From: Acidimicrobiales bacterium
Lineage (GTDB): Bacteria > Actinomycetota > Acidimicrobiia > Acidimicrobiales > UBA8190
Direction: 5' to 3'
Length of the DNA stretch: 64,000 nt
NCBI GenBank assembly: GCA_035531755.1
Contig: DATKSK010000018.1
Coordinates: 1-64,000, forward strand
Shown: piece after piece, positions 46,927-52,861 of the stretch
Position numbering within the stretch: the stretch's first letter is position 1
How the letters are laid out: each line of letters opens with the position of its first letter
Made by a program: the position numbers and the translations under genes
Notes under the pieces: generated by a model
What the model was told of the DNA's origin: nothing
What the model saw: only the letters and a program-made list of their open reading frames with translations
Databases searched by the model: none

Positions 46927-47526
46927 GTGTACACCGGCCCGCTGCAAGGTCTGGTGGACGAGCTCGGGCGGCTCCCCGGCATCGGCCCGAAGTCCGCCCA
47001 GCGCATCGCCTTCCATCTGCTGAAGGTGGCCCCGGAGGACGCCATGCGCCTCGCCGAGGCCATCGTGGCCATGAAGGAGCGCATCACGCTGTGCCCCCGG
47101 TGCTTCAACGTCGCCGAGGGTGACATCTGCTCGATCTGCGCGGACCCCCGGCGCGACGGGTCCGTGCTGTGCGTGGTCGAGGACCCCCGGGACATCGTGG
47201 CGGTGGAGAAGACCCAGGAGTTCCGCGGCCGCTACCACGTGCTGCACGGTGCCCTGAACCCGATCGAGGGGATCGGGCCCGACCAGCTGCGCGTGCGCGA
47301 GCTGCTCGGCCGCCTCGACGACGAGGCCGTCACCGAGGTCATCCTGTGCACCAACCCCAACCTCGAGGGCGAGGCCACCGCCATGTACCTGGCCCGGCTG
47401 CTGAAGCCCCTCGGCCTGACCGTGACGCGCATCGCCAGCGGCCTGCCCGTCGGCGGCGACCTCGAGTACGCCGACGAGCTCACCCTGGGGCGGGCCCTCG
47501 AGGGGCGGCGCGAGGTCGACGCCTGA
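46927..47526 (+). CDS. recR: Recombination mediator protein RecR
   Basis: 199 residues, full length. It opens [21 protein letters not shown] (helix-hairpin-helix). The Cys4 zinc finger is [16 protein letters not shown]. The Toprim domain is [19 protein letters not shown] through [21 protein letters not shown]. RecR works with RecF and RecO to load RecA on gapped DNA. GTG start two bases after dnaX. The YbaB/EbfC gene that often sits between the two is absent here. Confidence 0.95.
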
Positions 47527-47543: not shown

Positions 47544-47581
47544 CTCAGTCCCACAGCTCGGGCTCAGTCCCACAGCTCGGG
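47544..47581. repeat. 19-bp exact tandem duplication over a stop codon
   Basis: CTCAGTCCCACAGCTCGGG occurs twice in tandem. On the minus strand one copy encodes the final PELWD and TGA of the putative nuclease gene; the other repeats the same five codons and stop just downstream. Confidence 0.95.
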
Positions 47582-48634
47582 CTGGCTGGTGCCGGGCTCG
47601 AGCGGGAAGTAGCCGGGCAGCTCGTCCGACGGCGTGTCCAGGTAGACCTTGGCCTCCGGGGGCTGGGCGAAGCGGCCGTGGCTCCAGCGCACCTCGACGT
47701 GCCCGTGCACCTCACGCGGTCGTGCCGTGGCCCGCTCGACGTAACGCGCCACCCAGTCCACCTGGGGCTGGCCCGACGCCGCGGCGCGGATATCGAGCCC
47801 GGTCAGCCGGTAGGTCCGGCGCCAGTCCCACGAGCTCGCCACGCGCAGGCGCAGCGACCGGCGGGGGTCGGCCCCCAGCATGAAGTAGGCGGCGTTGCCG
47901 ATGCGCAGCAGGCGCCACACCATGCGCTGCGCGGCGTGGCGTCTGGCGACGTTGTCGAGCCAGCACTGGGCGGACGCCGCGCTCACGCGGGCGCACAGGG
48001 CGCGGTATGCGTGGCGCGCGCCGGGTGGATACGACCGGCCCGGCAGGGCGCGGCGCAGGCGCTGCCGGTCCTCGGTGCCGAGGGCACCGGGCTCGTCGGG
48101 GAGGTCGGTCAGCCCGGTGGCGGCGCGGCAGGCGAGGTAGAGGGCGTGCAGCTCCTCGGGCGCCACCACCTCGTACCAGTCGGTCTGCTCCCAGTCGCCG
48201 GTGGTGGCGAGCAGGCCTTCGAAGAGCCGCGCCGGGGAGGGGTTGGCGATGTTGCGCGACAGGTACTTGCAGCTGACGAGGTAGACGTGGTCGATCCGCA
48301 GGTCCACGGGCGCCACCTCGTCACCGGAGGGTCGCCGGCCCCCGGTCCACTCGATCAGCCGGGGGCGCCTGCCCCGCAGCGCGTCGTCGGCCTCCAGGAA
48401 GGCCCTGCCGTTGGCGTAGGCGGTGGCGAACTCGGCCTCGAACCGACCCGAGGCGTGCAGGGCCTGCAGCTGCTGCCAGGTGGCGTCGGGGACGGCGAGC
48501 TCGCCGGGACGGCCGGCCAGGGTACGGGGGAGGTCGGCACGGCCGAGCATGCCGAGGGCGGTGGCGAGCTCGGTGACCGTGGTGCGGTCATCGGGCACGG
48601 GGAGCGGCGCGTCGGCGCTTGGAGCCCGCGGCAC
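47564..48634 (-). CDS. Putative nuclease partner of the adjacent methyltransferase
   Basis: 356 residues; not a family I can name. The first ~90 residues are helical (TELATALGMLGRADLPRTL). A segment around 105-125 reads GDEVAPVDLRIDHVYLVSCKYLS. This resembles a PD-(D/E)XK-type active site, with PVD before a strand ending in SCK, where Ser replaces the usual acid. A helix-rich region (150-230) and a basic region (NVARRHAAQRMVWRLLRIG) follow. The C-terminal ~80 residues are beta-rich. The ATG lies inside the methyltransferase gene, overlapping it by 47 bases, so the pair is coupled. A restriction or defence function is inferred from that pairing. The stop lies in a 19-bp duplication. Confidence 0.5.
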   Translation of the reverse strand: MPRAPSADAPLPVPDDRTTVTELATALGMLGRADLPRTLAGRPGELAVPDATWQQLQALHASGRFEAEFATAYANGRAFLEADDALRGRRPRLIEWTGGRRPSGDEVAPVDLRIDHVYLVSCKYLSRNIANPSPARLFEGLLATTGDWEQTDWYEVVAPEELHALYLACRAATGLTDLPDEPGALGTEDRQRLRRALPGRSYPPGARHAYRALCARVSAASAQCWLDNVARRHAAQRMVWRLLRIGNAAYFMLGADPRRSLRLRVASSWDWRRTYRLTGLDIRAAASGQPQVDWVARYVERATARPREVHGHVEVRWSHGRFAQPPEAKVYLDTPSDELPGYFPLEPGTSQPELWD

Positions 48635-50066
48635 CCCGCGGTGGCGGGGGCGCGCCGTCGGCGAGCGCGATGCCTTCGGACGCGTAGCGCCGCAGGCGCG
48701 CCTGGTCGTCGGGGGACTCGAGCTCGATCACGTCGTGGACCGCGGCCAGGGTGCCCGGTGCCGTGGCCGCGGCCAGGGAGCGCCAGGCGCGCTCGCCGGC
48801 GCTGCCCGGAACGGGTACCGCCGTCGTGAGCAGGACGACGGGGACCTCGGGCAGCTCGGCGTGGAGGACGGCCGCCTTGCCCAGGGCCCTCCACAGGGTG
48901 TCGGCCCGTCGGAGCCCCGTCCGGGTGGTGGTGAAGGCGCCCGACACGTCGAAGAGCCACCGCCGGCCCGTCCGGTCACGGGCCGAGAAGGTGACGTCGA
49001 CGCCGGCCACCAGCCGCTTGCTCTCGACCACGTCGGCGAACCCGCACGCTGCCAGCAGCTCGGCGGCCAGCTCGCGCGCCGACGCGCCGTCGGCGCGCGC
49101 CCCTTCCAGCAGGCCGGCGGCGCCGTCGGCGCGGGCCTCGCGCCCGATGAGCCGGTCCCGCTCCTCGCTCACCCGCTGCTCGGCGATGCGGACGTACTCG
49201 GACTCGGTGTCGTAGCCGACGTAGTGGCGCCCGCTGCGCACCGCCGCCGCGGCCGTGGTGCCTGACCCCATGAACGGGTCGAGGACGAGGTCACCCTGGT
49301 AGGTGTACAGCTCGATCAGCCGCAGTGGGAGCTCGACGGGGAACGGCGCGGGATGCCCGACGCGCGTGGCGCTCTCGCTGGGCAGCTCCCAGACGTCGGT
49401 GGTGGCCTCGATGAACTCGTCCTTGGTGACCGAGATGCCCGAGGGCAGCCCGCGGCGCGCCCGCTCGGGGCGGGCCAGTGCCCGGTCGAACCGGCCCTTG
49501 CTGGCGATGACGACGCGCTCGGTGACGTCGCGCAGCACGGGGTTGGCTGGGCTGCGGAACGACCCCCAGGCGCAGGAGCCGCTCGCCCCCCGGGCCTTGT
49601 GCCAGATGACCTCACCCCGCAGCAGCAACCCCAGGCGGTCCTGGAGGATGCCGATGACGTCGGCGGACAGCGACCGGTAGGGCTTGCGCCCCAGATTGGC
49701 GACGTTGACCGCGATGCGCCCGCCCGGCTCGAGGGTGCGCACGCACTCGGCGAAGACGTCCGACAGCATCGCCAGGTAGTCGAGGTAGCTGGCGGGGATG
49801 TGGCCCTCGCCGAGCGCCTCCTCGTACTCCTTGCCCGCGAAGTACGGCGGTGAGGTGACGACCAGGGCCACCGACGAGTCCTCGACCTCGTCCATCCGGC
49901 GCGCGTCGCCCGTGAGGATCTTGTCCTTGACCGTCGACGGGTTGACGGTGTCGTCGCCCGACAGGACGGGCGCCGCGAAGCGGTCGTAGAACCCGCTGGC
50001 GTCATGGTTCTCGCGCCGGCCCACCCCGAACGGCGAGGTGGACGTGGGCTTGCGGCGTCGGCTCAC
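48588..50066 (-). CDS. DNA methyltransferase (N4-cytosine/N6-adenine) with extra C-terminal domain
   Basis: 492 residues. The methyltransferase core (about 40-290) has the catalytic motif TSPPYFAGKEYEE near the N-terminus and the cofactor motif DPFMGSGTTAAA near the C-terminus. This motif order is that of beta-class enzymes. A target segment and a helix follow. The extra ~170 residues (about 300-470) have ELAAELLAACGFADVVES, GVDVTFSARDRTGRRWLFDVSG and VPVVLLTTAVP. Their alpha-beta-beta-alpha-beta order resembles a degenerate nuclease fold, though the usual Lys is missing. The start is GTG 50066 (AGGAG upstream); ATG 50114 in frame is the alternative. The gene overlaps the putative nuclease by 47 bases. 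Confidence 0.85.
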   Translation of the reverse strand: MSRRRKPTSTSPFGVGRRENHDASGFYDRFAAPVLSGDDTVNPSTVKDKILTGDARRMDEVEDSSVALVVTSPPYFAGKEYEEALGEGHIPASYLDYLAMLSDVFAECVRTLEPGGRIAVNVANLGRKPYRSLSADVIGILQDRLGLLLRGEVIWHKARGASGSCAWGSFRSPANPVLRDVTERVVIASKGRFDRALARPERARRGLPSGISVTKDEFIEATTDVWELPSESATRVGHPAPFPVELPLRLIELYTYQGDLVLDPFMGSGTTAAAAVRSGRHYVGYDTESEYVRIAEQRVSEERDRLIGREARADGAAGLLEGARADGASARELAAELLAACGFADVVESKRLVAGVDVTFSARDRTGRRWLFDVSGAFTTTRTGLRRADTLWRALGKAAVLHAELPEVPVVLLTTAVPVPGSAGERAWRSLAAATAPGTLAAVHDVIELESPDDQARLRRYASEGIALADGAPPPPRGAAGSKRRRAAPRAR

Positions 50067-50125
50067 TGCCGTGACTCCTCGCGTACGCGCCCCGGGACCG
50101 CGCTCGACGACCATGGGGTCGATTG

Positions 50126-50174: not shown

Positions 50175-51359
50175 CTAGGCGATCGAGCGCAGGACGAGGG
50201 CGTCGCCCTGGCCGCCACCGCCGCACAGGCTGGCGGCGCCGAGGCCCCCGCCGCGCCGGCGCAGCTCGTGGAGCATGGTGAGCGCCAGTCGGGTGCCGGA
50301 CATGCCGATGGGGTGGCCGAGGGCGATGGCCCCGCCGTTGACGTTGGTCTGCTCGTCGGTGATCCCCATCGCCGCCATCGAGGCCAGGCCCACAGCCGCG
50401 AAGGCCTCGTTGATCTCGAAGAGGGCCACGTCCGCCGGTGTCTTGCCGACCTTGGCGAGCGCCTGCACGGTGGCGTTGGCCGGCTGCAGCAGCAGCGACG
50501 CGTCGGGCCCGGCCACCTGCCCGTAGCTCACGACCTCGCCGAGCGGGGTGACACCCAGGGCCTCGGCCCGGGCGCGGGAGGTGACGACCACGGCCGCCCC
50601 GCCGTCGGAGATCTGGCTGGCGTTGCCGGCGGTGATGGTGCCCTCCTTGTCGAAGGCGGGACGCAGGCCGCCCAGCGACTCGGCGGTGGTGCCGGGGCGC
50701 ACGCCCTCGTCGGTGTCGACCACGATGGGGTCGCCCTTGCGCTGGGGCACCGACACGGGGACGATCTCGTCGGCGAACCGGCCGTCCTTGATGGCCGCCG
50801 CCGCCCGCTCGTGCGACAGCGCCGCCACGGCGTCCTGGGCGTCACGCGAGATCTTGGCTTCCTTGTTGTACCGCTCGGTGCCGAGGCCCATGGCGCAGTG
50901 GTCGAACTGGCAGTACAGGCCGTCGTACATCATGGAGTCGACGAGCGAGCCGTCCCCCATGCGGTAGCCGGCGCGCGCCCCGGGCAGCAGGTAGGGCGCC
51001 TGGGTCATCGACTCCATGCCGCCCGCCACCACCACGTCGGCCTCGCCCGCGGCGATCAGGAGGTCGGCCAGGTAGATGCTGTTGAGCCCGGACAGGCAGA
51101 CCTTGTTCACCGTGGTGGCCGGCACCGACATCGGGATCCCGCCCTTGGTGGCGGCCTGCCGGGCCGTGATCTGCCCCTGGCCCGCCAGCAGGACCTGGCC
51201 CATGAAGACGTAGTCGACGTCCCCGGGCGCCACGCCGGCGCGCTCGAGGGCCGCGGCGATGGCGAACCCGCCCAGGTCCATGGCGCTGAAGCCCCCGAGG
51301 GCACCCGACAGCTTGCCGATGGGGGTACGGGCCCCCGCGATGATGACGGAACCGGGCAT
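50175..51359 (-). CDS. Acetyl-CoA acetyltransferase (thiolase)
   Basis: 394 residues, the normal length. The acyl-accepting Cys is in NKVCLSGLNSIYLAD, the His in GGAIALGHPIGMSGTR and the second Cys in CGGGGQGDA. The N-terminus starts MPGSVIIAGARTPIGKLSG with GGAGG eight bases upstream of ATG 51359. It condenses two acetyl-CoA or splits acetoacetyl-CoA. It is divergent from the crotonyl-CoA carboxylase/reductase gene and would supply acetoacetyl-CoA to the same pathway. Confidence 0.92.
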   Translation of the reverse strand: MPGSVIIAGARTPIGKLSGALGGFSAMDLGGFAIAAALERAGVAPGDVDYVFMGQVLLAGQGQITARQAATKGGIPMSVPATTVNKVCLSGLNSIYLADLLIAAGEADVVVAGGMESMTQAPYLLPGARAGYRMGDGSLVDSMMYDGLYCQFDHCAMGLGTERYNKEAKISRDAQDAVAALSHERAAAAIKDGRFADEIVPVSVPQRKGDPIVVDTDEGVRPGTTAESLGGLRPAFDKEGTITAGNASQISDGGAAVVVTSRARAEALGVTPLGEVVSYGQVAGPDASLLLQPANATVQALAKVGKTPADVALFEINEAFAAVGLASMAAMGITDEQTNVNGGAIALGHPIGMSGTRLALTMLHELRRRGGGLGAASLCGGGGQGDALVLRSIA

Positions 51360-51401
51360 GGACATGACCTCCGGGACGTTGACGGGCCGGAGCGCCATTC
51401 T

Positions 51402-51470
51402 ACGGCCCGGGTCCGGCTCCCGGGCCAGTCCGATCCACGGCCCGGGTCGGCCCCCGGGCCAGTCCGACGG
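51402..51470. repeat. ~35-bp tandem duplication with CCCGGG arms
   Basis: Two units (51402-51436 and 51437-51470) share ACGGCCCGGGTC and CCCGGGCCAGTCCGA. Each is itself a CCCGGG-flanked inverted repeat. The pair fills the divergent promoter region between the thiolase and ccr. Confidence 0.75.
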
Positions 51471-51506
51471 GCCCTGCCGGCTGCGGTGCCCGTCGGCAGA
51501 CGAAGG

Positions 51507-51512
51507 TAGGGT
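51507..51512 (+). promoter_or_regulatory. TANNNT -10 box, ccr
   Basis: TAGGGT ends eight bases before ATG 51521. This allows only a base or two of leader. Confidence 0.45.
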
Positions 51513-51520
51513 GCCTCCCC

Positions 51521-52861
51521 ATGCAGGCATTCCGTGACGCCATCGTCGCCGGCGCCGGCGGGGACGAATTGGCCGCCCTGGCGCTGCCCGAGTCGTACCG
51601 GGCCGCCCACGTCCGGCGCGACGAGATCGAGATGTTCGCCGGCGTCGAGTCGGCCGAGAAGGACCCCCGCAAGTCGCTGCACGTGTCGGAGGTCCCCGTG
51701 CCGGAGCTGGCGCCGGACGAGGCCTACGTGGCCGTCATGGCGTCCTCCATCAACTTCAACACCGTATGGACCTCGATCTTCGAGCCCCTGCCGACCTTCG
51801 GGTTCCTCGACCGGCTGGGCAAGGAGAGCGCCTGGGGCGCCCGCCACGCCCTCGACCACCACGTGGTCGGCTCGGACGCCTCGGGCGTGGTGGTGCGGGT
51901 GGGCTCGGCGGTGCGCAACTGGCGCCCCGGCGACAAGGTGGTCGTGCACTGCAACTACGTCGACGACCAGGACCCCACGGCCCACGACGACTCCATGCTG
52001 GCGGCCAACCAGCGCATCTGGGGCTTCGAGTCCAACTTCGGGGGGCTCGCCGACCTGGCCGTCGTCAAGGCCAACCAGCTCATGCCGAAGGCCCGCCACC
52101 TCAGCTGGGAGGAGGCGGCGATCAACGCCCTGTGCAACTCCACCGCCTACCGGATGCTCGTGTCGCGCAACGGGGCGGCGATGAAGCAGGGTGACCGGGT
52201 CCTCGTCTGGGGCGCCAGCGGCGGCCTCGGCAGCTACGCCGTGCAGCACGTGCTCAACGGGGGCGGGACCCCGGTCGGCGTGGTGTCGTCGCCGGACAAG
52301 GTCGACCTCCTGCACGGGCTGGGCGTCGAGGCCGTGATCGACCGCGCCGCCGCCGGCTACCGCTTCTGGCGCGACGAGCACACCCAGGACGAGTCGGAGT
52401 GGCGCCGCTTCGGCAAGGACGTGCGCGCGCTGGTGGGCGTGGACCCCGATGTCGTCTTCGAGCACCCCGGCCGTCAGACCATGGGTGCCTCGGTGTTCGT
52501 GTGCAAGCGCGCCGGGACGATCGTCACCTGCGCGGCCACGTCGGGCTACATGATCGAGTACGACAACCGGCACCTCTGGATGAAGCTGAAGACGATCAAG
52601 GGATCGCACTTCGCCAACTACCGCGAGGCCTGGGACGCCAACCAGCTCGTCTGCGACGGCAAGGTCGTGCCCCCGCTGTCGGCCGTCTACCCCCTCGAGG
52701 AGGTGGGCGAGGCCGCCTACCAGGTGCACCACAACCTGCACGAGGGCAAGATCGGCGTGCTGTGCCTGGCGCCCGGGGAGGGCCTGGGCATCGACGACCC
52801 CGAGCTCCGGTCCCGGGTCGGCGAGGGGCGGATCACGCACTTCCGGAGGCACGGGGCGTGA
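51521..52861 (+). CDS. ccr: Crotonyl-CoA carboxylase/reductase
   Basis: 446 residues. The CO2-pocket residues known from Kitasatospora and Rhodobacter enzymes are all present: Asn in SSINFNTVW, Phe-Glu in WGFESNFGG and His in KGSHFANYREAW. The Rossmann part has VLVWGASGGLGSYAVQ. The enzyme carboxylates crotonyl-CoA with CO2 and NADPH to give (2S)-ethylmalonyl-CoA. This is the diagnostic step of the ethylmalonyl-CoA pathway, although it can also serve polyketide supply. It overlaps the epimerase gene by four bases. The mutase, dehydrogenase and thiolase genes lie within 8 kb, which favours a carbon-assimilation role. Confidence 0.95.
   Translation: MQAFRDAIVAGAGGDELAALALPESYRAAHVRRDEIEMFAGVESAEKDPRKSLHVSEVPVPELAPDEAYVAVMASSINFNTVWTSIFEPLPTFGFLDRLGKESAWGARHALDHHVVGSDASGVVVRVGSAVRNWRPGDKVVVHCNYVDDQDPTAHDDSMLAANQRIWGFESNFGGLADLAVVKANQLMPKARHLSWEEAAINALCNSTAYRMLVSRNGAAMKQGDRVLVWGASGGLGSYAVQHVLNGGGTPVGVVSSPDKVDLLHGLGVEAVIDRAAAGYRFWRDEHTQDESEWRRFGKDVRALVGVDPDVVFEHPGRQTMGASVFVCKRAGTIVTCAATSGYMIEYDNRHLWMKLKTIKGSHFANYREAWDANQLVCDGKVVPPLSAVYPLEEVGEAAYQVHHNLHEGKIGVLCLAPGEGLGIDDPELRSRVGEGRITHFRRHGA

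Follow-up and report, generated by a model that had tools for sequence, protein, structure and literature searches.

An overlapping gene pair between recR and a thiolase gene

The window, the whole 64,000-nucleotide stretch of DNA analysed here, comes from a genome of the order Acidimicrobiales (G000; 3.28 Mb, 96% complete). Between recR (46927-47526, plus strand) and a thiolase gene (50175-51530, minus strand), it carries two overlapping, co-directional genes on the minus strand, namely that of a 508-aa methyltransferase and, downstream of it, a 356-codon frame that we predict to encode a restriction nuclease. Their features are listed below, with residue numbers of the nuclease following the 356-aa frame and its conservation counted in 89 full-length homologues:

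47564..48598, minus: putative restriction nuclease gene (P0001 family), 344 aa from the likely GTG start at 48598; the open reading frame reaches 48634 (356 aa)
47639..47704, minus: C-terminal signature of the putative nuclease, GHVEVRWSHGRFAQPPEAKVYL, the stretch matching PADLOC PDLC03456 (profile match and homologue alignment)
48266..48310, minus: putative catalytic core, PVDLRIDHVYLVSCK, PD-x9-(S/Q)xK with D111, S121 and K123 (D111 and K123 in 89/89, S121 in 88/89)
48350..48352, minus: E95, acidic residue before the motif (E in 88/89, D in 1/89)
48569..48571, minus: E22, in the first helix of the model, invariant (89/89)
48588..50114, minus: beta-class DNA methyltransferase, 508 aa (Pfam N6_N4_Mtase, PADLOC MTase_II PDLC03350, PDB 2zie)
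48675..49097, minus: C-terminal tail of the methyltransferase, predicted PD-(D/E)XK fold with a degenerate catalytic site (alignment, AlphaFold model, fold matches)
48939..48953, minus: FDVSG of the tail, the site where stand-alone relatives have FEYKG (ExK); lysine in 0/55 tails
49254..49280, minus: DPFMGSGTT, methyltransferase motif I, SAM binding (DPFMGSG is residues 279-285; sequence and relatives)
49842..49853, minus: SPPY, methyltransferase motif IV, residues 88-91 (sequence; at least 95% conserved in relatives)

The initial annotation had placed both frames here, on this strand and overlapping, and we confirm that arrangement. The 356-codon frame is a real gene, because it has 242 relatives in genome contigs (among the named ones, Acidimicrobiia/Acidimicrobiales MAGs and a few isolates), invariant motifs and pairwise dN/dS values of 0.13-0.33 across the window and four relatives. 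The 356-residue product starting inside the methyltransferase gene is thus real and overlapping, as first described, but is likely shorter: homologues begin with MPDDRT (VPDDRT in the window) at the position of V13, where the sequence reads a GTG codon at 48598, and since they begin there, translation probably starts at this codon to give a protein of 344 aa. The resulting 11-nt overlap of the nuclease start with the methyltransferase stop is a likeness to translationally coupled genes.

Close relatives represented by MAGs (L028-L031, L037) share the order recR - nuclease - methyltransferase - thiolase, which more distant ones do not have; the pair is therefore an old resident in the window's own family and is sited elsewhere in other families. 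This synteny, together with a GC content that is even and unremarkable across the region, rules out a recent island. Of the initial claim that the pair interrupts a housekeeping region, its position between recR and the thiolase gene stands, but the insertion is not a recent one. Beside the pair, whose neighbours are recR and the thiolase gene, there is no helicase/translocase or separate specificity gene, and none recurs among the neighbours of the homologue loci. At the convergent end with recR, an exact 19-bp tandem duplication (ctcagtcccacagctcggg twice, window 47544-47581) takes in the final codons of the nuclease gene and its stop.

The methyltransferase and its degenerate nuclease-fold tail

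The methyltransferase matches Pfam N6_N4_Mtase (E 7.8e-39) and PADLOC MTase_II PDLC03350 (1.1e-90), and its closest solved structure is a 'putative modification methylase' (PDB 2zie, 1.2e-31). Its motif IV (SPPY) stands ahead of motif I (DPFMGSG), and it is therefore assigned by motif order to the beta class, in agreement with the initial annotation. In such enzymes, an SPPY motif IV points to N4-methylcytosine chemistry, and we predict from this motif that N4-methylcytosine is probably the product.

Downstream of the methyltransferase domain lies a tail of about residues 340-480 that is conserved in an alignment of 55 relatives and has no Pfam match. Its AlphaFold model (pLDDT 84.6) shows the order helix-strand-strand-strand-helix-strand-helix-strand-helix, which includes the helix-three strands-helix-strand core of PD-(D/E)XK nucleases, and its fold matches in Foldseek and VIA are mostly PD-(D/E)XK proteins (EndoMS/NucS, EcoO109I, SfsA, Card1/Can2, XisH, BsoBI, SgrAI), with Foldseek probabilities of up to 0.99 and VIA Z scores of up to 9.5. 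On this model, we assign the tail to the PD-(D/E)XK fold. It differs from active members of that fold in its site: across the 55 tails, the ExK site has D or E at its first position and S, A, T, P or Y, never lysine (0/55), at its third, and the first acidic residue of the PD-(D/E)XK site is not conserved. The extra, degenerate nuclease-like C-terminal domain noted in the initial annotation is thus recovered by its modelled fold and is predicted from these residues to be a dead nuclease domain. With the catalytic lysine lost, the tail most likely serves something other than cutting, such as binding DNA, forming dimers or regulating the methyltransferase. The same loss sets the enzyme apart from Type IIG/IIB systems, which have an active nuclease domain in the methyltransferase chain, because the only nuclease-fold domain of this chain is without the lysine. 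The methyltransferase domain has pairwise dN/dS values of 0.08-0.25 and the tail of 0.26-0.58 (window and four relatives); the nuclease, the methyltransferase domain and the tail are thus all constrained, the tail least.

In three genomes (G036, G149, G245), a stand-alone relative of the tail whose ExK is intact (GIEID...WFEYKG) directly adjoins the same methyltransferase, and the tail likely originated by fusion of such a neighbour. Methyltransferases without the nuclease gene also keep the tail, and in the Ferrithrix clade (L077, L082, L085, L098) nuclease genes are paired with tail-less methyltransferases. The tail is thus not tied to the nuclease, and a requirement of the nuclease for the tail was dropped in view of these tail-less partners. 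No homology between nuclease and tail was detected at the sensitivity of hhalign (probability 0.2%).

Several other proteins occur around the methyltransferase in relatives. Stand-alone FEYKG tail relatives (L159:6580-7161, L181:6561-7340, L182:5968-7374) adjoin it in genomes without a nuclease match and are possibly an alternative restriction partner. Another tail-like protein, encoded convergently to the methyltransferase (L183:5155-6054, L184:5372-6082, L152:3734-4978), shows FVLLARGT or FLVAAHGT where the active site would be, and one member weakly resembles Mrr_cat. In two loci (L179:6479-7414, L176:4307-5392), the tail domain has a gene of its own, placed between those of the methyltransferase and the nuclease, and its product is extended at the C terminus by a region containing HRVKVxxPSKD. 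In about 25 loci in all (e.g., L106:7682-7993, L105:7726-8037, L172:5914-6336), the gene immediately downstream of the methyltransferase encodes a conserved protein of ~100 aa (VACAVVRDDPPQVFVAED...), often separating the methyltransferase gene from that of the nuclease; the protein has no Pfam or PADLOC match and is absent from this window.

The putative nuclease family and its linkage to the methyltransferase

The possible PVD...SCK site of the initial annotation is borne out by the conservation of D111 and K123 in all 89 homologues and of S121 in 88, to which E22, E95 and the invariant N131 (89/89) can be added. In the one exception, the most divergent homologue (L115), Q replaces S121 to give QAK in a motif reading DVPRDLTVEGVWFIQAKY; QxK is a variant active-site pattern known in Mrr-type nucleases. 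The protein thus displays the conserved acid and (E/D/S/Q)xK expected of PD-(D/E)XK nucleases. PADLOC REase_II PDLC03456, which like PDLC03350 we take to be a REBASE-derived model, was matched by 19 of the 21 homologues scanned, the matches being weak (best E 2.7e-4) and covering about 40 C-terminal residues; across 396 genomes of the phylum, it matched one genome, via a member of the same nuclease family. We accordingly describe the second protein as a putative nuclease bearing the hallmarks of PD-(D/E)XK-type restriction enzymes.

As the initial annotation had stated, the protein is otherwise unrecognised: Pfam, NCBIfam and PHROGs returned no match, nor did PDB sequences by phmmer and profile search; tblastn against plasmids and phages gave chance-level matches only, and viral contigs held no relatives of either the nuclease or the tail. 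The family is thus undescribed in Pfam, NCBIfam, PHROGs and the PDB, and REBASE may already list some members. The AlphaFold model of the nuclease, built on 21 sequences, has a pLDDT of 82.7 overall and is weakest around the motif (about 57-80). In it, the motif is surrounded by short strands and E22 lies in the first helix, an arrangement in keeping with a PD-(D/E)XK site in this weakly modelled region. Fold searches with this model, poor as it is around the motif, stayed at noise level: against the PDB, the best Foldseek E value was 0.051 and VIA reached a Z of 4.4 at best, to unrelated NTF2-like folds, and among viral models the best one (A0A1J0F9H5, E 1.8e-3) was rejected as a fold match, the superposition being too poor (TM 0.29, rmsd 14.9).

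The proposed association with a methyltransferase holds across relatives: in 62 of the 80 nuclease-homologue loci, the same stretch also carries the methyltransferase, in most cases as the gene immediately upstream. A lack of methyltransferases beside the homologues, which would have refuted the initial suggestion, was thus looked for and not seen. Isolates with a homologue pair include Acidiferrimicrobium sp. IK and Ferrithrix thermotolerans DSM 19514. Of the remaining 18 genomes, 15 have it elsewhere, and the three nuclease-bearing genomes in which it was not detected are MAGs that may be incomplete. In a sample of 60 relatives from the order, the methyltransferase is present in 56, usually as a single copy, and nuclease matches occur in 25, some of them truncated or fragmentary (G003, G010, G037). 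All 25 also hold the methyltransferase, which is weak evidence alone against a background of 93%. One genome (G008, C127 and C186) has two full-length tailed methyltransferase copies, just one adjoining the nuclease. Among the 396 phylum genomes, 38 have the tail domain, some of them from families of another class, and nine have the nuclease, all nine together with the tail domain.

On the methyltransferase tree, 17 changes, whether losses or gains, are required between the paired and solo states, eight or more of them forced by well-supported branches; a few solo rows have the nuclease elsewhere in the genome. Nuclease and methyltransferase distances correlate (Mantel r 0.67, with 0 of 2000 permutations as high), shared ancestry contributing to this value. 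These data fit a pair that mostly travelled together, with the nuclease repeatedly lost or gained and often dropped. Retained where the nuclease is absent, the methyltransferase resembles a core gene of the order; such an imbalance is what one would expect if its loss ahead of the nuclease were harmful.

A predicted Type II-like system and its alternatives

From the two conserved families, their linkage and distribution, the invariant residues and the tail fold with its lost lysine, all obtained by computation, we infer that the pair is probably a Type II-like restriction-modification system, with nuclease activity, shared specificity, a role in defence and N4-methylcytosine formation as its predicted components. 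This supports the initial suggestion of a candidate restriction or defence pair of an undescribed type II-like kind, 'undescribed' applying within the libraries searched. The methyltransferase would mark a short DNA sequence of the host genome; the second protein would be the partner endonuclease that cuts incoming unmarked DNA by means of the PD-x9-(S/Q)xK active site; and the tail, without its catalytic lysine, would most likely have one of the non-cutting roles proposed above. As in Type II systems with a beta-class amino-methyltransferase, the genes are separate and adjacent, with neither ATPase nor specificity subunit. An N6_N4_Mtase enzyme with catalytic and SAM-binding motifs matches MTase_II, and the linked gene of the predicted endonuclease, overlapping in the window, belongs to a family weakly matching REase_II. 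The present pair differs from such systems in that its nuclease family lies outside the libraries named above and its methyltransferase, near-universal in the order, bears a dead domain of nuclease fold. On the features tested, the pair fits Type II restriction-modification, with shared specificity, the decisive feature, being presumed. Comparing loci with and without the nuclease revealed no clear restriction-site avoidance among palindromes of four or six bases; CTAG and CGCG are depleted in both sets alike, and therefore no recognition site can be named.

The breadth of the methyltransferase invites comparison with conserved orphan methyltransferases (PMC4752239) such as Dam, CcrM and the CTAG enzyme of Halobacteria, where a class-wide methyltransferase is surrounded by patchy restriction genes (PMC6471742). 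The near-universal single-copy enzyme and patchy restriction genes are shared with these, and its presence in 56 of 60 relatives exceeds the half of related species by which conserved orphans are recognised (PMC4752239). It differs from them in that a nuclease gene adjoins it here and is linked to members of its family in most nuclease-bearing relatives. A tentative, though quite conceivable, extension is that an order-wide core epigenetic methyltransferase, comparable to CcrM in Alphaproteobacteria and bearing a dead nuclease domain, has had unrelated nucleases, i.e., this family and the stand-alone ExK tail relative, coupled to it and lost many times, the mark remaining fixed while the cutter is swapped. 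If the methyltransferase were instead a core CcrM- or Dam-like epigenetic enzyme and its neighbour a non-nucleolytic DNA-binding accessory or regulator, its single-copy prevalence, its persistence without the second gene in many lineages and the lack of a recognised nuclease fold in that protein would follow. We consider this unlikely, given the conserved acid and (S,Q)xK residues (D111 and K123 in 89/89), the match to a Type II restriction enzyme model and the absence of the supposed accessory from more than half of the genomes, which is not expected of a partner of a core enzyme.

Mrr-like nucleases also display the (S/Q)xK pattern, and some of these are modification-dependent. The second protein, which sometimes lies far from the methyltransferase, might hence be a Type IIM/IV-like nuclease that cuts DNA bearing this methyltransferase's mark or some other mark, the pair then being no ordinary protector and cutter; yet a nuclease that attacked its host's own mark could not share a genome with this near-universal methyltransferase, and the tight linkage and overlapping frames suit a classical pair, making this improbable. 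Slimmer still is the chance that dead tail, second protein and methyltransferase form one heteromeric restriction complex of new subunit architecture. The conserved nuclease fold of the tail and the separate tail protein between methyltransferase and nuclease gene in L140/L179 and L176 would suit such a complex, but methyltransferases that lack the nuclease partner retain the tail, and in the Ferrithrix clade the nuclease is paired with tail-less ones.

If the nuclease of the predicted Type II-like pair is active, it founds a family of restriction enzymes absent from the libraries searched, and its carriers are hundreds of largely uncultured Acidimicrobiia that are invisible in this respect to current defence-system scans. 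The pair is also a clean natural case of a restriction gene being lost with the methyltransferase retained. Through the near-universal methyltransferase, members of the order would share one DNA mark, and the methylome of a single isolate would then reveal much about an entire group that abounds in soil, acid mine water and marine habitats.
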